In this document: positions 23,438 through 32,575 of the stretch, piece after piece | How positions within the stretch are numbered: position 1 is the first letter of the stretch | Layout: each line of letters opens with the position of its first letter | From: Nitrospirota bacterium | GTDB taxonomy: Bacteria > Nitrospirota > Thermodesulfovibrionia > UBA6902 | Length of the DNA stretch: 64,000 bases | Reading direction: 5' to 3' | Assembly: GCA_016214845.1 (NCBI GenBank) | Contig: JACRMS010000020.1 | Location: forward strand, 1 to 64,000 | Made by a program: the position numbers and the translations under genes | Notes under the pieces: model-generated | Seen by the model: only the letters and a program-made list of their open reading frames with translations | Databases searched by the model: none | What the model was told of the DNA's origin: nothing

Positions 23438-25171
23438 ATGAAAAATCAGGAGGTCGCCAGGATCTTCAACGACATTGCTGATATTCTTGAGATCAAAGGT
23501 GACAACCCTTTCAGGATTCGCGCGTACAGGCGCGCGGCGCAGAACATTGACGGGCTTGCCAAAGACGTCACGGAAATATCCGCGGAAGAATTGCAAAAGA
23601 TTCCGGGCATCGGGGCTGACCTTGCAAACAAGATTCATGAGTATGTCGGGACAGGTCATTTAACATTCTATGAAGAATTAAAAAAGGAAGTGCCCTCCGG
23701 CCTCGTTGACCTCCTCTCCGTTCCGGGTCTTGGCCCGAAGACTGCGAAGCTCCTCTTTGACAAGCTTCATGTTAAAGATGTGGACGACCTTGAGAAATAC
23801 GCGAAGGAAGGAAAGCTGAAAGGCCTTCCCGGCATTCAGGCAAAGACAGAAGAGAACATCCTCAAAGGGATCGCGATGATCAAGCGGCACACTGGACGTT
23901 TCCCCCTGGGGCGAGTGCTGCCTGTTGCCGAAGGGATTGTGGAGAAGCTGAAGGGAAAACCTTTCATTAATAAATTGAGCATTGCAGGAAGCCTCAGGCG
24001 CTGGAAGGACACGATACATGACATTGACATACTTGCAACTTCAAAAGACCCTCATAAAGTGATGGACGTGTTCGTCCATCTGCCGCAGGTAAAGGAAGCG
24101 CTTATGAAGGGGCCGACGAAATCAAGCGTTATCACCGCTGAAGGAATTCAGGTGGACTTGAGGGTTGTGGAGGAAGACTCGTTCGGCGCGGCGTTAGCTT
24201 ATTTTACCGGCAGCAAGGAGCATAACATAAGGCTCCGCGAGATGGCTGTGAAAAAGGGAATGAAGATAAATGAGTACGGCGTCTTCGATGTCAAGACGGA
24301 CAAGAAATTAGGCGGAGAGCATGAGGAAGATGTCTATAAAATACTTGGTATGCCGTACATCCCGCCTGAAATACGTGAGGATACTGGAGAGATCGAAGCG
24401 GCCCTTACAGGCAATCTGCCGAAGCTTATCGAGTTGAAGGACATAAAAGGCGACCTCCATGTGCATACCACTGACAGTGACGGGAGCCACGACATAGAGG
24501 AACTTATTGAAGCCGCGAAGGCGAGGGGCTACGAATATCTTGCTGTAACAGACCATTCAAAAGGACTCGGCGTAGCCGGGGGATTGAGCATCGAGCAGGT
24601 GCTTGAGCAGAATAAAAAGATACAGGCTCTGAACAAAAAATTAAAAGGCTTCAAAATCCTTTCCGGCACGGAGATGGATATCAAAAGTGACGGGACACTG
24701 GACTATCCCGATGATGTTTTGAAGAAGCTTGATATTGTCATCGCCTCCATACATTCAGGGTTCAGGCAATCTAAGGAACAACTCACAAAGCGGCTTGTCT
24801 ACGCCATGAAGAACCCGTACGTCAACATCATCGCCCATCCGACCGGAAGGATCATCGGAGAGCGCGAGGCATATGAAGTAGATATGGAAGAAGTTTTAAA
24901 GACAGCAAAAGAAACAGTCACAGCAATCGAGATAAACGCCTATCCGCTGAGACTCGACTTGAGTGACATGTATGTCAAGAAGGCAAAAGAAATGGGGATC
25001 GCGCTTTCGATCAATACAGACACCCACGTCACGTTCCAGTTTGACTTTATGACCTACGGCATAGGCACTGCGAGAAGGGGCTGGGCTGAGAAGAAGGATG
25101 TCTTGAATACGCTGGGGTATGAGGCGTTGATGAAGAGATTGAGAAAAAAGAAAAGTGCAAAAGCGCAATAG
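23438..25171 (+). CDS. polX: Family X DNA polymerase/PHP exonuclease
   Basis: The 577-aa protein has helix-hairpin-helix motifs (LQKIPGIGADLANKI near 49, LLSVPGLGPKTAKLL near 92), a polymerase beta-like nucleotidyltransferase domain (AGSLRRW near 183 and DIDIL near 193) and a C-terminal PHP phosphoesterase domain (DLHVHTTDSDGSH near 340, HPTGR near 466, NTDTHV near 526). Bacterial PolX acts in gap filling and repair. A small insertion or loss is not evident; length is typical. Confidence 0.93.
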   Translation: MKNQEVARIFNDIADILEIKGDNPFRIRAYRRAAQNIDGLAKDVTEISAEELQKIPGIGADLANKIHEYVGTGHLTFYEELKKEVPSGLVDLLSVPGLGPKTAKLLFDKLHVKDVDDLEKYAKEGKLKGLPGIQAKTEENILKGIAMIKRHTGRFPLGRVLPVAEGIVEKLKGKPFINKLSIAGSLRRWKDTIHDIDILATSKDPHKVMDVFVHLPQVKEALMKGPTKSSVITAEGIQVDLRVVEEDSFGAALAYFTGSKEHNIRLREMAVKKGMKINEYGVFDVKTDKKLGGEHEEDVYKILGMPYIPPEIREDTGEIEAALTGNLPKLIELKDIKGDLHVHTTDSDGSHDIEELIEAAKARGYEYLAVTDHSKGLGVAGGLSIEQVLEQNKKIQALNKKLKGFKILSGTEMDIKSDGTLDYPDDVLKKLDIVIASIHSGFRQSKEQLTKRLVYAMKNPYVNIIAHPTGRIIGEREAYEVDMEEVLKTAKETVTAIEINAYPLRLDLSDMYVKKAKEMGIALSINTDTHVTFQFDFMTYGIGTARRGWAEKKDVLNTLGYEALMKRLRKKKSAKAQ

Positions 25172-25211
25172 CGCAGAAGTGCAATAGAACAAAGGTGCGG
25201 GCGCGGGGTTG

Positions 25212-25232
25212 TGTTATAATCATGTTATAACA
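25212..25232 (+). promoter_or_regulatory. Palindromic operator/promoter of the toxin-antitoxin pair
   Basis: TGTTATAA, a 5-bp spacer TCATG and TTATAACA form a perfect 8-bp inverted repeat immediately upstream of the mazE-like gene. It contains a TATAAT hexamer (25215-25220). Such palindromes are typical of operators at which the antitoxin, alone or in complex with the toxin, represses its own operon. Confidence 0.65.
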
Positions 25233-25248
25233 TTTTGAGGAGGTGTTG

Positions 25249-25497
25249 ATGCACAGGAAAATATGTTCAATAGGAAACAGCCGGGGGGTTTCCATCCCCG
25301 TTGACGTCCTTGAAAAGCTTGATCTGTCAGTCGGCTCGGATGTGGATGTAAAACTTGACGAGAACAAATCAAGGATAATAGTAGAGCCCGTCAGGAAAAA
25401 GAAATATCCTAAAGGTGTTGACAGGGAATTTGTTTCTCAGGTTAACGAATTTATAAAGAAGTATGAGCCTGCGCTCAAAGAGCTTGCAAAAAAGTGA
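25249..25497 (+). CDS. AbrB/MazE-type antitoxin
   Basis: 82 aa from ATG 25249, preceded by GAGGAGG five bases upstream; a GTG at 25243 lies inside that ribosome-binding site. The N-terminal swapped-hairpin domain (ICSIGNSRGVSIPVDVLEKL) binds DNA and the acidic/basic C-terminus (VSQVNEFIKKYEP) would bind the toxin. Its stop overlaps the Doc-like start by 4 bp (GTGA). MazE/AbrB domains paired with Doc toxins are common in environmental genomes. Confidence 0.85.
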   Translation: MHRKICSIGNSRGVSIPVDVLEKLDLSVGSDVDVKLDENKSRIIVEPVRKKKYPKGVDREFVSQVNEFIKKYEPALKELAKK

Positions 25498-25877
25498 AAT
25501 GTCTTTCCGCGGAACAGGCGCTGTTTATTCACAGCAGGCTTATTGATGAAACAGGCGGCGCTCACGGCGTCAGGGATTTAGGTCTCCTTCAATCCGCCGT
25601 ATCAAGACTACAGGCAACATTCGAAAGCAAAGACCTCTATCCCGATATCTTCCATAAAACTGCCGCGCTGATGGAATCACTCATAAAAAACCATCCCTTT
25701 ATCGACGGCAATAAGAGGACCGCTATAACAGCTTCAGGTATTTTTTTGAGAATTAACGGTTACTCACTGGAAGCCTCGCAGAAGGAGCTTGAGCGATTCG
25801 TACTCAGAATGGCTACCGGGAAAATTTCCTTTGAAGCGGCTGTTAAGTGGTTCAAGATCAATTCCTTAAAACAATAA
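25494..25877 (+). CDS. doc: Doc-type Fic family toxin
   Basis: The 127-aa protein has the Fic/Doc active-site motif HPFIDGNKRTA near residue 61, preceded by GVRDLGLLQSAVSR. Doc enzymes phosphorylate elongation factor Tu and stop translation. The start is GTG overlapping the antitoxin stop, an arrangement that links production of the two. The catalytic His, Asp and Lys/Arg residues are all present, so the toxin appears active. Confidence 0.9.
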   Translation: MKCLSAEQALFIHSRLIDETGGAHGVRDLGLLQSAVSRLQATFESKDLYPDIFHKTAALMESLIKNHPFIDGNKRTAITASGIFLRINGYSLEASQKELERFVLRMATGKISFEAAVKWFKINSLKQ

Positions 25878-26021
25878 TACCCGGCAAGAGCCATAGTACG
25901 AAAGACCAATAGCGCGCTTTGAAAAATTTACGTCGTTCTTCTTTTGTTATGCGCTGCGGTACTTATGCACTATTTCAGCTTTTGCTCTTCTGCAATATGG
26001 AAAATGTGGCATTGGATAGTG

Positions 26022-27767
26022 TTATGTCAGAGGGGGTGCTTCTGAACTCTCCTCCATCGAGTTTAATTCTTTGAGTTGCAAAAGTTTATACCAGAAAAAC
26101 GGTGCCACTGGAGTACGAAAATGCCTGCATGCAATCAAGTCGATTGCTGAAATTCCTGCCTTACCCGCCGTTGACGAAGCGATGACATTGTGGCGTTCTG
26201 ATTTAAGAATGCCTTCCATCCGAGCGCGAAACTCTCTTGCATCATCTGGCAAAACAATCGGGGCTTCAGACTCTCCGCAATGATGATAAGCAGTCCAATA
26301 ATAAAGATGTTTGAAAAAGTCTTGATTTGTTGGATGCCATAGCTGAAGACATATCTCAGCGTAGTCCTTTTTTGAATTTTTCGTCAGCACATCATAGAGA
26401 TCGTGCCGTTCTAAAATTACAGACCATCCTGCAATCGTCGGTAGCAGCCAAGATGTGCTCATAAGACGAGTAGCAATCTCATCATCTCCGAAAACAGTTG
26501 CTTTGACCAAATCATCTGTTGAATCGGTACAGATTGGGAAATCTCGCTTGCGCTTAAAAGTGTAGTCAACGCGCTTGACTAGTTCAGCAAGCCAATTTTG
26601 AGCTTGAGAGATATTTCCTGTAAGAACCAACAGGAGCATTCCAAGCACAATGTCTACTATCTGGATATCAAGTCGAGGAGAGCCTGAAACAGGATTGTCT
26701 TTAAGCAATGCTGTCAGCCCGTCGGCAACAATAGCTGCGTTATTAAGCTCGGTCTTCCGGGTCTCCTCATCTCCTGCAGCGGCTAAAATTCGACAGAGTC
26801 CAATTGATGCAAGCAGACCAATTTGCTCAAAAACTACCAGAGAAAATTCAGCGTTTTCCCGGCAGTATCCGGATAACCCATCTTGCACATATAGATGCCC
26901 TTGAAGTTTCTCAAAGTACCGGTGAGCGACCGCATTATAGCTTTGAAATAGATCACTAAATTCCTGGTAATAACGACGTCTGTCGTTTTCTTCTTCTTGC
27001 TGTATTCGATGCCAGGACCAAAGCAAGGCGCGTTCTGAGGCTACAAGCGCCTGCTTCAAGTTGCCCTCTTCCTCTGACCATCGTGAAAAAACCTGTGCAG
27101 AAAGATTAATAACTCGTAAAGCTTTTACTATATATTGCGATCCGTTGCCGGTGTCCACCCGCTCACCTTCATCCGTCAATCTTAACTGCCGATGGAACAA
27201 TCGATATAAGTCCTTCTGGTCATAATCGAGTTCGCCCGCTAAGGCGAGGGCTTTCCTAAGATGCGCTCTATCTTCCGTGTTGAAAATATTTTCATTCAGC
27301 ATGTGTTGCTCAATGAGTGATGCAATCATGTCGCCACCCCAAAAGCTGAAAAGAGCCCGCATAGAGTGTTCCTTTGCGTAGTTATCCCAGTTGATCTGAG
27401 TATCTTGCTTTAAGTCACCTGTCGTAGCAAGGACGATTCTTTTCCTAATTGACTCGTGGGCGGGTTCAATATGCGTTTTCAAGTAAACATCAATAACTTC
27501 GTTCAAGCTCTGTCGAACAGACTGTGGGCCTGAATCCCACTCGCTACGGCCTATATCCCCACGCTTGATTACCAATAACAGCAATTCCTGAATGCCATCT
27601 TCAGGCGCAAGACCTACTGCTGCCAAATCAACACCGAATTGACGAATTCCGGTTTGCGGTTTTGAAATTGGAACGTAACCCATCACCATCAGAAGGTCTG
27701 GGAGAAGCTTATCAAATTCGTCCCGTTCCTTGAGACTTCGCAGGTACTGTGCAAGAATCAATTTCAT
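26022..27767 (-). CDS. Unknown protein with nuclease-like N-terminal domain, second gene of a two-gene operon
   Basis: The 581-aa protein has an N-terminal domain (about 1-165) with features reminiscent of restriction-endonuclease-like folds: a small-residue-rich segment with Asp (RQFGVDLAAVG) near residue 46, then strand-Lys (LLLLVIKRGD) near 68, a conserved-looking PQSVRQSLNEVIDVYL and RIVLATTGDLKQD. A canonical E/Q-x-K is replaced by V-x-K, so nuclease activity is unproven. The middle and C-terminal parts (about 180-560) are helix-rich with tetratricopeptide-like spacing and no known motif. It starts inside the stop of the upstream gene (4-bp overlap), is AT-rich relative to polX and uvrB, and lies between toxin-antitoxin genes. 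I do not recognise a named family. Confidence 0.5.
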   Translation of the reverse strand: MKLILAQYLRSLKERDEFDKLLPDLLMVMGYVPISKPQTGIRQFGVDLAAVGLAPEDGIQELLLLVIKRGDIGRSEWDSGPQSVRQSLNEVIDVYLKTHIEPAHESIRKRIVLATTGDLKQDTQINWDNYAKEHSMRALFSFWGGDMIASLIEQHMLNENIFNTEDRAHLRKALALAGELDYDQKDLYRLFHRQLRLTDEGERVDTGNGSQYIVKALRVINLSAQVFSRWSEEEGNLKQALVASERALLWSWHRIQQEEENDRRRYYQEFSDLFQSYNAVAHRYFEKLQGHLYVQDGLSGYCRENAEFSLVVFEQIGLLASIGLCRILAAAGDEETRKTELNNAAIVADGLTALLKDNPVSGSPRLDIQIVDIVLGMLLLVLTGNISQAQNWLAELVKRVDYTFKRKRDFPICTDSTDDLVKATVFGDDEIATRLMSTSWLLPTIAGWSVILERHDLYDVLTKNSKKDYAEICLQLWHPTNQDFFKHLYYWTAYHHCGESEAPIVLPDDAREFRARMEGILKSERHNVIASSTAGKAGISAIDLIACRHFRTPVAPFFWYKLLQLKELNSMEESSEAPPLT

Positions 27768-29719
27768 GATTCACCTCTTTTCGCAAGCCGAAACAATAGC
27801 CGACTTATTTCATACCCCACCGTATCGATTGCATGTCGTCTGGGTACCGCAACTTGATGTGAGAACGACTGGAGATAACTAGTGTCAGTATAGCCTCCGT
27901 CGTGAAAACTGAACGACCCGATTCCAGCTTTTATTGGTATATGAGTTACAAGCTGATGAAAGATGGATTGCTTTTGAGATTCCTCTGCCATTGTGTTCAT
28001 CTGCTTTGCACGTGCTTTTGCAAATTGACGCTGGAGGCTGGGTGGAGGTCTTAATTCTGAAAGACGCGGCAATGCTTCAAGTTTTCTAATACGGCTTTCG
28101 ATAGCTTCAATTATACTTGAGTAAAAAGCAATCAATTCACTCTCTTCTGTTAGCTTTTTTGCTGCCTCAAGTGCTTCGACTGTCGACTCCGGGAAGTCTT
28201 GTCCTATCTCTTCAACGAATAAGGAACGAACAATTCCGAATGTGCGATGCTCTGCATCTTTAGTTTTGAGAAAAGACATCGTGAGCGATAGAAGGTGATT
28301 CTCAGAGTAAACATACCCAAGCGTACGTCTTGCCAAAAACAGCAGATCGCTTAGCTCCGAGAGATCGAGCCGCGAACTGCTGTACTCTGGGTTTTTTAGT
28401 CCATGCACCCCTAAATAAGACAGTAATCCGGCAGCAGCGGAGGCAAGTCGTCTACTGTCTGAAAGAAACCAGTCAGTAATTATCTGAGAAAGCAATGCCG
28501 GGTGTTTGATCAGTTTAGATGTTGTCGAGTCAAACAACTTTGTCATCGACTTATCTTTCGGCGAGTTATCTGCGTTAGCTTGGACCCAATCAGTTAAGCA
28601 AGAGATAACAAACTGCTGCTGCGATTCGTCACTGATCAACTGATAAAGAACAGAATCGAAATTATCAATACCACCTTTTGTCTCCGGTAACAGTTTACAT
28701 AGCAATCGAACCCATTTGTTGAAGCTATCCGTCCCTTTCATCCCATTTGTATTCATCATCAACATACCAGCAATTGCGGCAAGAACATCTTGATCACCAG
28801 ACTCTCCAAGCTTAGTCAGGGTGTCATCAAATGCACCTATGACTGGAACGGCATGGGCTGCAACGGTTATAGCGGCATGACGAACTCGCTCAACGGGATT
28901 CGACATATTCATGATGACGATAGCTGATACTGCTGGAATTGCATCTGCTGTGATTATTGTCAACGCAAGCAGTCGCCCAAGAGTCCACAAGGCGGCACTC
29001 TTAAGAATTATGTTTGCGGCTTGCGTGTCTTCGAGTGCGAGTTTGACAGCTTCATTGGGTAATGATTTAGCAAGCGCCGAGAATACGACTGTATATAGGC
29101 CAGCCGTTGCTTCTGATATTTCAGATCTGAGGCGGACATGGATTGATTTACAGGTATCGGGCTGAACAACCAAAACCTTTTCAATGTTATTGAAAAACAT
29201 ACCAGCGGCAAGATCATTCTTGGTTTGTTCGTGTTGTGCAGAGCAGAGCGTAAAAATCCCGTCTACGGGTAAATTACTTATATAAGGCAGCGCAGCCTCT
29301 ACTACATGAAGAACATCAAATACCTGCATTGATTCATTTTCAATTGCGCTTGCAGCAATGGAAAATATATCTTCTGATTCATTGACAAAAGAGAGCAGGC
29401 CGCCTGATGCACTATCAGCCATGCCAATCTCGCATCGCCAAAGGTCATATGCTGTCCCAATCCACTTTTGAGCATCATCTGAGAATGCCTGCCGATTCTT
29501 CTGGAATACATACGCGGCAACGCAACGGTTCCGTGCCTCTATCGAGGGAAAGCGAAGAGTGTTACCATCGATGACGAAATCATCTGTTTCCTTGTGTGAT
29601 GATTTCAGATTTTCCGCATCTTCAACAGGTAGGTCGCAGATCAATTCCTCAGATTGTTTCATGTGAAGGTCAAACGCGCATTCACCGACTATTATCATTG
29701 ACTGATCTTTATCCTCCAT
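27764..29719 (-). CDS. Unknown large helical-repeat-like protein, first gene of a two-gene operon
   Basis: The 651-aa protein has no signal peptide and no catalytic motif that I can see. Many segments read as amphipathic helix pairs (for example AALWTLGRLLALTIITADAI, VRHAAITVAAHAVPVIGAF, LASAAAGLLSYLGVHGL), consistent with a HEAT/ARM-like solenoid between about 200 and 480. The last 70 residues are different: HQLVTHIPIKAGIGSFSFHD and DTVGYEISRLLFRLAKRG. Its gene overlaps the downstream nuclease-like gene by 4 bp, so they are expressed together. It may be a scaffold or sensor of a two-protein system; this is inference. Confidence 0.5.
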   Translation of the reverse strand: MEDKDQSMIIVGECAFDLHMKQSEELICDLPVEDAENLKSSHKETDDFVIDGNTLRFPSIEARNRCVAAYVFQKNRQAFSDDAQKWIGTAYDLWRCEIGMADSASGGLLSFVNESEDIFSIAASAIENESMQVFDVLHVVEAALPYISNLPVDGIFTLCSAQHEQTKNDLAAGMFFNNIEKVLVVQPDTCKSIHVRLRSEISEATAGLYTVVFSALAKSLPNEAVKLALEDTQAANIILKSAALWTLGRLLALTIITADAIPAVSAIVIMNMSNPVERVRHAAITVAAHAVPVIGAFDDTLTKLGESGDQDVLAAIAGMLMMNTNGMKGTDSFNKWVRLLCKLLPETKGGIDNFDSVLYQLISDESQQQFVISCLTDWVQANADNSPKDKSMTKLFDSTTSKLIKHPALLSQIITDWFLSDSRRLASAAAGLLSYLGVHGLKNPEYSSSRLDLSELSDLLFLARRTLGYVYSENHLLSLTMSFLKTKDAEHRTFGIVRSLFVEEIGQDFPESTVEALEAAKKLTEESELIAFYSSIIEAIESRIRKLEALPRLSELRPPPSLQRQFAKARAKQMNTMAEESQKQSIFHQLVTHIPIKAGIGSFSFHDGGYTDTSYLQSFSHQVAVPRRHAIDTVGYEISRLLFRLAKRGES

Positions 29720-29834
29720 ACCTCACCCCCTGCTCCCTCACAATCATCTCCTTCTCCCTCTCAATCTCTTCTATGAGTTGCCGTTCGCTGGGCAGATAGA
29801 GTTTATATCTTGAAGCGAAGAGCTGTTTGTTTTC
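29716..29834 (-). pseudogene. C-terminal remnant of a DUF1016/YhcG-like nuclease
   Basis: On the minus strand 29834-29716 reads KENKQLFASRYKLYLPSER followed by QLIEEIEREKEMIVREQG and a stop. This resembles the C-terminal tail of DUF1016 (YhcG-type PD-(D/E)XK) proteins, which often end with LP-S/T-E and a charged helix. No ATG lies upstream in frame; the frame continues directly from the zinc-ribbon gene's stop. I interpret it as a fragment left by recombination. Identification is from memory of the family and not proven. Confidence 0.45.
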
Positions 29835-29840
29835 CTTGCC

Positions 29841-30119
29841 TCATATCTCCGCTTCAGGGACCGCAACCTCTTCCCCGCACCCCGGACAGCGATAACGCCC
29901 TTTCCGCTCATCAACTGCTGAAAATCTCATTCCTGTGTCAACACCCGGTGTTGCTCGATTACTGACGATCAGAAATCCCTCGAAAGTTACGTCTTCCTCA
30001 ATATCGCAGCGAGGGCATGAGAGCAGCTCTCTGTCTTCACAAAACAATCCCATCTGTCTTTGCTGTTTTTTAATTGCCTGTATTTGTCTGGTCAGGGCGC
30101 GAATTTCTGATGACAACAT
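29841..30119 (-). CDS. Small zinc-ribbon protein paired with an RHH-like gene
   Basis: The 92-aa protein begins with a basic helix (MLSSEIRALTRQIQAIKKQQ), then has two CxxC pairs (SCPRCDIEED near residue 34 and YRCPGCGEE near 76) that can bind one zinc ion. The stretch between includes DTGMRFSAVDERKG. I do not recognise a function. It follows the RHH-like gene by 10 bp on the same strand, in the place where a toxin gene would be expected. Confidence 0.6.
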   Translation of the reverse strand: MLSSEIRALTRQIQAIKKQQRQMGLFCEDRELLSCPRCDIEEDVTFEGFLIVSNRATPGVDTGMRFSAVDERKGRYRCPGCGEEVAVPEAEI

Positions 30120-30129
30120 ACTTCCCCTT

Positions 30130-30420
30130 TTACGCTATCTTCAACTCTTTCCGGATATGCTCGGCGACCCACTGACGCACCAGGGTTTGATACGGGATAC
30201 CTTTTTGCGTAGCGACTTTTTTTATTGAGACAAGATACATCGGGTCGATCTTGATAGTTACGTTCCGCAGTTTTCTCTTCCGCTTTCGCGTTATGATGTC
30301 TCGTTTGAGTGCCTCGTCGAGGCTGACCGCAACGTCCTCTTCGATGATCTCGCCCAGGACGCCCCGTTTGTCGTAATATTCTTCGTCCGTTATTTTCTTT
30401 TTTGCCGCTCTGACTTTCAT
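30130..30420 (-). CDS. CopG/RHH-type DNA-binding protein (antitoxin-like)
   Basis: The 96-aa protein has a basic N-terminus, an acidic middle (EIIEEDVAVSLDEALKRD) and a C-terminal ribbon-helix-helix candidate (NVTIKIDPMYLVSIKKVATQ then GIPYQTLVRQWVAEHI). This resembles CopG-family antitoxins. The usual BrnT or RelE-like partner is absent and a zinc-ribbon gene follows. GGAG upstream of ATG supports the start. Confidence 0.7.
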   Translation of the reverse strand: MKVRAAKKKITDEEYYDKRGVLGEIIEEDVAVSLDEALKRDIITRKRKRKLRNVTIKIDPMYLVSIKKVATQKGIPYQTLVRQWVAEHIRKELKIA

Positions 30421-30565
30421 AAGTTTATCTCCTTCCGGGCATTACCTCCGATTGTATTACTTTGATTTATCTATGTCAAAGGTTTCAGAGTCGTGAACGG
30501 CAACTACTTCTTTGTTATTTTAAACATGCTACAATAATTCTGAATCTTTACAAAGAGGAATTACC

Positions 30566-32575
30566 TTGTTAGCTCAGCGTAAAAACTCCGGCACTTTTAA
30601 ACTGACCTCGGACTTCAAGCCCACGGGTGATCAGCCGAAAGCGATTGAGATGCTTAATGAAGGCATCCTGAAAAACCACAAGCACCAGGTGCTGTTAGGC
30701 GTCACGGGGTCCGGCAAGACATTTACGGTTGCTAACGTCATTGAGAATGTGAACAAACCGACTCTCGTCATCGCCCACAACAAGACCCTTGCTGCGCAGC
30801 TTTATGGCGAATTCAAGTCCTTCTTCCCTGAAAACGCGGTGGAATATTTTGTGAGCTTCTACGACTACTATCAGCCTGAAGCCTACCTGCCATCCACCGA
30901 CACGTATATTGAAAAAGACTCCATGATAAACGAGGACATTGACAGGCTGAGGCACGCGGCGACACGCTCCGTGCTGGAGAGAAACGACACTATTGTTGTC
31001 GCCTCGGTCTCGTGCATTTACGGCATCGGCTCGCCTGAGGATTATATGGGGATGCATCTTTTAATTGAGGAGGGGATGCGCACCGAGAGGGACGCGTTTT
31101 TGAGAAAGCTTGTGGACATGCTTTATGACCGCAGCGAGGATTTCAAACGCGGGACATTCAGGGTGCGGGGAGATGTTGTCGAGATATTTCCGTCGTTCTC
31201 CGGCGACAACGCGCTGAGGGTGGAATTCTTCGGCGACGACATTGACGGTTTGCATGAGTTTGATTCCCTCTCGGGCAGGGCCATCAGGCGTCTTGAAAAG
31301 ATCGCACTCTACCCGAACAGCCACTGGATAACGCCAAGGCCGAGAATTGAGCGTGCCATGAAAGAGATCAACAAAGAACTTGATGAACGGCTCACTTTTT
31401 TTCTCAGGCAGGACAAACACCTTGAGGCAAAGAGGCTTGAGCAGAAGACGCGCTTTGACATGGAGATGCTCAAGGAATTCGGATACTGCCACGGGATTGA
31501 AAATTATTCGCGTCACTTAAGCGGAAGGGCCCCGGGGGAGCCGCCGTTCTGCCTCATTGATTATTTCCCGGAAGACTTTCTCCTCATCATTGACGAATCT
31601 CACGCGACAGTCCCGCAGATCGGCGGGATGTACGAAGGCGACAGGTCGAGGAAACAGACGCTTATTGATTACGGCTTCCGCCTGCCGTCTGCGCTTGATA
31701 ATCGCCCGCTCAGGTTCAACGAATTTGAGCACAGGGTGAAGCAGGCGATCTACGTGTCTGCGACACCGGCTGAATATGAGATCAAAAAATCAAACCTCAG
31801 GATAGCGGAGCAGATCGTCAGGCCCACAGGTTTGATGGACCCCGTCATTGAAGTGCGTCCCGTTGCCGGGCAGATCGATGATCTACTCGGTGAGATCAGA
31901 ACGAGGGCCGAAAGAGGAGAAAGGGTCCTTGTGACCACGCTGACAAAGAAAATGGCCGAGGACATCACTGAGTATTATTCTGAATTGAATTTGAAGGCCC
32001 GTTATCTGCATTCGGACATTGACACCCTTGAGAGGGTGGAGATACTCAGAGACCTGAGGCTTGGAAAATTTGACGTGCTCATCGGGGTAAACTTACTGAG
32101 GGAAGGACTGGACATCCCGGAGGTATCGCTTGTCGCGATATTCGACGCTGACAAGGAAGGGTTTCTCCGTTCCACACGCTCACTGATCCAGACAATGGGC
32201 AGGGCAGCGAGAAACATTAACGGCATGGTCATATTCTACGCTGATAGAATTACAGGCTCGATGAAAAATGCCATGGACGAAACCAACAGACGGCGAAAGA
32301 TCCAGGAGGCCTACAACAAAAAGCACAACATAACGCCGACGTCTATCAAGAAGGAGATAACGAACATCCTCAGTTCAATCTACGAAGCGGACTACTGGAC
32401 CGTGCCTGTTGTGGCGGAGGAAAAGGTTGAATACGGCGATGAAGCAGCGATCAAAAAGCTTGAAGATGAAATGAAGCAGGCCGCGGCGAAACTCGATTTC
32501 GAAAAAGCCGCGGAGCTGAGAGACCGGATAAAGGCGATCAAGAACAAACTGATCGAACTGGGGATAAAGGCGTGA
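30566..32575 (+). CDS. uvrB: Excinuclease ABC subunit B
   Basis: Damage-verifying helicase-like subunit of nucleotide excision repair, 669 aa. Walker A is GVTGSGKT near residue 45, the beta-hairpin that probes DNA is [19 protein letters not shown] near 96, the motif [13 protein letters not shown] follows, and helicase motifs VI (QTMGRAARN) and IV-V are present. The C-terminal UVR domain ([20 protein letters not shown]) that binds UvrC closes the protein. The start is TTG preceded by GAGG; the next residues [12 protein letters not shown] fit family N-termini. Confidence 0.97.

Follow-up and report, generated by a model that had tools for sequence, protein, structure and literature searches.

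The window, a 64,000-nucleotide stretch of a contig from a Nitrospirota bacterium, carries on its reverse strand an operon of two large genes, oloA and oloB, whose open reading frames overlap by 4 bp and have the places and sizes (651 and 581 codons) given in a preliminary description of the sequence. That description recognised neither protein family, because Pfam and NCBIfam have none for the OloA or OloB of this locus. In PADLOC the two proteins match OloA (E 1.6e-93, residues 89-649 of 651) and OloB (E 1.9e-160, residues 1-563 of 581). Family match and gene order show that the oloA-oloB pair is the Olokun anti-phage system, and by this membership our copy is predicted to protect against phage. 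Both protein families have already been described, and the pair is not a new system; Olokun, made up of OloA and OloB, was reportedly described by Millman et al. in 2022. The features of the locus to which we refer are the following.

27764..29719 (-): oloA, first gene of the operon, 651 aa, HEAT/ARM-like helical solenoid (PADLOC OloA, structural model and PDB fold matches)
26022..27767 (-): oloB, second gene, 581 aa, its start overlapping the oloA stop by 4 bp (PADLOC OloB)
27288..27767 (-): OloB residues 1-160, predicted PD-(D/E)XK-type (Mrr/MspJI-like) domain (topology, fold matches, Mrr_cat profile match with controls)
26088..27287 (-): OloB residues 161-560, helical, weakly TPR-like region (model and weak fold matches to the LGN and KLC1 TPR domains)
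27711..27713 (-): codon of OloB D19, helix-1 acid aligned with the Mrr glutamate (D in 24/24; profile alignment)
27627..27629 (-): codon of OloB D47, conserved Asp in strand 2 (D in 24/24)
27564..27566 (-): codon of OloB K68, conserved Lys at the end of strand 3, V-I-K (K in 24/24; residue 66 never D/E/Q)
27522..27524 (-): codon of OloB Q82, candidate relocated active-site residue at K68+14 (Q in 23/24, N in 1/24)
27498..27500 (-): codon of OloB E90, in the helix after strand 3, alternative candidate to Q82 (E in 24/24)
25243..25877 (+): genes of a MazE-type antitoxin and a Fic/Doc toxin, flank of the operon (Pfam; kept in sister genomes without OloAB, from comparison with G002 and G006)
29841..30420 (-): 92-aa protein with two CxxC (zinc-ribbon-like) and CopG/BrnA-like antitoxin, other flank (conserved in G004 and G008)
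30130..30420 (-): the CopG/BrnA-like antitoxin of that flank

Scans of the oloAB region for promoters and terminators found sites no more numerous than in shuffles, and the list of open reading frames holds no methyltransferase gene linked to oloAB within the window.

The polX-uvrB slot and the distribution of Olokun

The operon lies between two core genes, polX and uvrB (25171-30566 of the window), an interval that is a variable slot in the genus, holding toxin-antitoxin genes together with differing defence modules, or nothing. The defence contents found across the genus (this window and loci L064-L072) are Olokun, SoFic and DNA methylases. Two genomes have no insert, polX and uvrB being about 0.2 kb apart in G003 and their matches 13 bp apart in G001. 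Genome G002 is missing the OloAB stretch, since its MazE-Doc region is followed, about 33 bp on, by the sequence that starts at 29839 in the window; its slot holds a SoFic protein and another toxin-antitoxin pair. The slot of G006 holds the start of a C5 cytosine methylase, and that of G008 a type II DNA methylase and then a gene for a 546-aa protein (L072:2579-4216), which lies directly after the methylase, has no Pfam or PADLOC family and is perhaps its restriction enzyme. The CopG/BrnA-like antitoxin beside the Olokun operon looks orphaned, because no BrnT adjoins it and in G008 the corresponding position is taken by a BrnT-like gene (L072:406-696). No direct or inverted repeats of 8-15 bp are common to the two flanks of the insertion. 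The accessory island with toxin-antitoxin genes that had been noticed at this locus therefore stands, with MazE and Fic/Doc, the CopG/BrnA-like antitoxin and a variable slot between polX and uvrB, which we regard as a chromosomal site of defence-module exchange among sister species.

Olokun is rare in the phylum: OloA is found in 3 of the 396 genomes sampled, and the same three have a strong OloB match; none of the nine other genomes of the same genus has OloB. A fourth OloB match among the 396, in G381 (L008), is weak, partial and without OloA, and it was set aside, the N-terminal domain being absent. This protein of 495 aa has near its C-terminus a GIRIELKAE stretch that resembles an ExK nuclease motif, and its gene adjoins a 443-aa helical-repeat-like open reading frame. 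The closest homologues of our OloAB are from Gallionellaceae (72% and 67% identity) and the copy in a genome of the same family, G026, is only about 30% identical, which makes horizontal acquisition most likely; the enterobacterial copies of Olokun show 23-26% identity. In G026 (C90:31471-33191; L109, L110), oloA is broken into two overlapping frames, through a frameshift or an assembly error, and the oloB downstream of it is intact. The assembly that holds our copy yielded no 16S gene.

Beyond the phylum, oloA stands directly before oloB, mostly with the 4-bp overlap, in plasmids of alpha- and gammaproteobacteria, in Gallionellaceae, on E. coli chromosomes and in prophages; in Tolypothrix, a cyanobacterium, the two are separated by an insertion sequence. 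That the pair recurs in the same order across proteobacteria and prophages marks both as real genes. Phage records gave no relative; viral contigs gave none with a single-sequence query and nine with a family-alignment query. In P2-like phages, the prophage copies L025 and L031 occupy the interval from the replication gene to the portal gene (gpA-gpQ), which is where old and tin are found and is a described anti-phage hotspot (PMC9122126). Plasmid and chromosomal copies have as neighbours a CD-NTase with ThiF (CBASS-type), NACHT, restriction genes, AbiEii, Borvo and a retron. The association with defence genes is strong but not universal, because the two Gallionellaceae copies are set among housekeeping genes. 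These neighbourhoods do not place the pair mainly outside defence islands, in agreement with the defence role first suggested for it.

Predicted structures of OloA and OloB

OloA is modelled, with a mean pLDDT of 80, as a solenoid made up entirely of helices that spans roughly residues 60-550. PP2A PR65 and importin alpha are its best fold matches in the PDB (E from 1.6e-4, prob 1.00), so that the HEAT-like solenoid that had been read from the letters is also the predicted HEAT/ARM-like structure. Few residues of OloA are invariant, and these are in its C-terminal part; the variability elsewhere would be in keeping with a region that contacts phage triggers as they change. On Klebsiella plasmids and at two E. 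coli loci OloA is short (300 aa) and matches the C-terminal half only, suggesting that OloB requires this half in particular. The OloA of this locus is in turn extended at its N-terminus by about 90 aa, as are L001, L002, L010 and L025. On two E. coli chromosomes (L023:6847-11680 and L024:6700-11680) Borvo (BovA, CHAT domain) is immediately followed by the short OloA and OloB. We considered whether Borvo and the short OloA form one system and rejected it: the two are adjacent at these two loci, but they are not annotated alongside each other on two Klebsiella plasmids.

In the model of OloB (AlphaFold2, 10 sequences, mean pLDDT 78.8), residues 2-156 form two helices, three strands, a helix and a strand, then a further helix-strand-helix, with D47 opening strand 2 and K68 closing strand 3. 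This arrangement is predicted to be the alpha-beta-beta-beta-alpha-beta core of a PD-(D/E)XK nuclease; the loop of residues 74-81 has pLDDT <50. In the PDB the three best fold matches are all MspJI chains (E 0.014-0.026, prob 1.00, none passing E 0.001); this enzyme carries an Mrr-type catalytic domain (PMC3874153), and the matches span the catalytic part only, about 170 columns. Among viral proteins, a phage restriction endonuclease gives the best fold match (E 3.3e-3, prob 1.00). Beyond this domain OloB consists of helices, and in the fold search that region shows a weak TPR likeness (LGN and KLC1 TPR domains).

Independently of the model, we compared a profile of 24 OloB N-terminal domains with Mrr_cat domains from related genomes. 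The alignment by hhalign covers OloB residues 16-152 with a score of 36.3 (E 1.2e-5), more than twice that of every control (at most 16.3 in 40 column shuffles, at most 15.6 for UvrB/PolX segments and 10.5 for the reversed profile). The signal is present in the mixed profile only, subsets of QxK and of ExK sequences giving probabilities of 18% and 0.5%, and none of 16 OloBs matched Pfam nuclease families, including Mrr_cat (PF04471), above cut-off. Searching PDB sequences with the OloA and OloB profiles returned noise only, and the profile comparison of OloA with OloB found no domain in common. We detected neither an SRA-like domain nor another reader of modified bases, and in OloA and OloB no catalytic motif was recognised besides the OloB N-terminal domain. 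The likeness to PD-(D/E)XK folds proposed earlier for the N-terminus of the 581-aa protein thus agrees with its topology, its fold matches and the Mrr_cat profile match, residues 1-160 being predicted to adopt a restriction-endonuclease fold.

Conserved residues of the OloB active site

The segments GVDLAAVG, VIKRGD and LATTGDLKQ, from which that likeness had been drawn, are present where described. In 24 distinct, non-redundant OloBs the invariant residues are E14, E17, D19, P23, G40, G45, D47, K68, R74, S87, E90, G117 and W143. The Asp and Lys of a PD-(D/E)XK site are therefore in place in all of them, and the D, E or Q that the canonical site has two residues before the Lys is absent from all: 13 of them have S at residue 66, 6 have V, 2 each have T and I, and 1 has L. 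V-x-K instead of E/Q-x-K, remarked on in the preliminary description for this protein, is accordingly a trait of the whole OloB family. In the profile alignment, D19 is paired with the glutamate in helix 1 of Mrr. Q82 (Q in 23 of the 24, N in the other) lies 14 residues past K68, just ahead of the helix formed by residues 84-99, and may be a relocated ligand that completes the active site. There are precedents among restriction enzymes: Cfr10I, NgoMIV and their relatives have lost the strand-3 acid and replaced it from elsewhere ('PD-XXK-E') (PMC551604), and in Kpn2I the relocated active-site residue is a glutamine (PMC6344858). Q82 or E90 may take the place of the missing E/Q.

With no member of the family having the E/Q of the motif, we can only infer that OloB is an active nuclease, and the domain could be catalytically dead. 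OloB would then be a nucleic-acid-binding sensor, acting on the phage by binding (through a replication block or the recruitment of a host nuclease) or through an activity elsewhere in OloB or OloA. Such a loss would account for the substitution in 24/24 sequences, and PD-(D/E)XK folds without nuclease activity exist (PMC551604). However, a domain that only binds would have no need of D47, K68 and the helix-1 acids, all of which are strictly conserved, and neither protein offers another recognisable catalytic motif, so we hold a purely binding OloB to be unlikely.

Proposed mode of action and comparison with known systems

We consider it probable that OloA senses or restrains, and that OloB, an Mrr-related PD-(D/E)XK nuclease with a TPR-like region, cuts DNA, either that of the phage or all DNA. 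OloA, as a HEAT/ARM-like solenoid, would sense phage infection or keep OloB inactive, and OloB, once released or activated by infection, would cut through its variant site. This is the sensor or scaffold with a nuclease-fold effector that had been suspected here, and it agrees with the PADLOC match to Olokun, the predicted folds and the defence context. OloA would then be the sensor and DNA the substrate of OloB. Since no methyltransferase gene adjoins the pair, self-protection is more likely to come from infection-dependent activation than from host methylation. As a more detailed proposal, which we put forward tentatively and do not favour as it stands, OloB could belong to an Mrr-related subfamily with a permuted site (D19, D47, K68 and Q82; PD..xxK..Q) and be an infection-activated, methylation-independent DNA nuclease gated by its HEAT-repeat partner.

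Two other activities were weighed against a DNA nuclease controlled by OloA. OloB might be an RNase or a general toxic nuclease that acts in abortive infection, gated by OloA as in a toxin-antitoxin pair; the two-gene unit with translational coupling through the 4-bp overlap, and its place among toxin-antitoxin genes, would suit this. But the nearest folds of OloB are DNA restriction enzymes and Mrr_cat, and the 651-aa OloA is far larger than typical antitoxins, and we judge this reading improbable. That OloB is a modification-dependent (type IV) enzyme, cutting phage DNA with modified bases as MspJI does, seems very improbable to us, for all that MspJI is its best PDB fold match and no methyltransferase gene is linked to the pair within the window, as the match is limited to the catalytic part, no modified-base reader was detected and OloA is left unexplained.

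PMC10121019 cites Olokun as a defence system described earlier. A 2026 review lists its mode of action as unknown (PMC12926258), and a 2025 paper describes it as not thoroughly characterised (PMC12592470). The suggestion of a nuclease role is not itself new, since a table from 2024 puts Olokun under nuclease activity (PMC10855318); what is new here is the prediction at the level of residues. The conserved OloB residues, together with the predicted folds, provide specific point mutants for work on the mechanism of Olokun.

As in other Olokun systems, OloA and OloB match their family models over almost their whole length, in the same gene order and with the short overlap of most relatives; this copy differs in being far from the enterobacterial ones and in the N-terminal extra part of OloA, of about 90 aa. 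With the Mrr and MspJI endonucleases, OloB shares the core topology, the placement of the Asp and Lys, the aligned helix-1 acid and a profile alignment over the whole domain. Unlike them, it lacks the E/Q two residues before the Lys, has no detected reader of modified DNA, and has a TPR-like region and a HEAT-like partner. The enzymes of the CCGG family (Cfr10I, NgoMIV, Kpn2I and PfoI) resemble OloB in that the strand-3 Lys is kept, the acid of the motif is lost and a conserved polar residue is found on the next helix. In OloB that candidate residue is Q (N once) and not E, and the likeness meant here is one of motif layout; within this family Kpn2I offers a precedent for a glutamine at the relocated place (PMC6344858).
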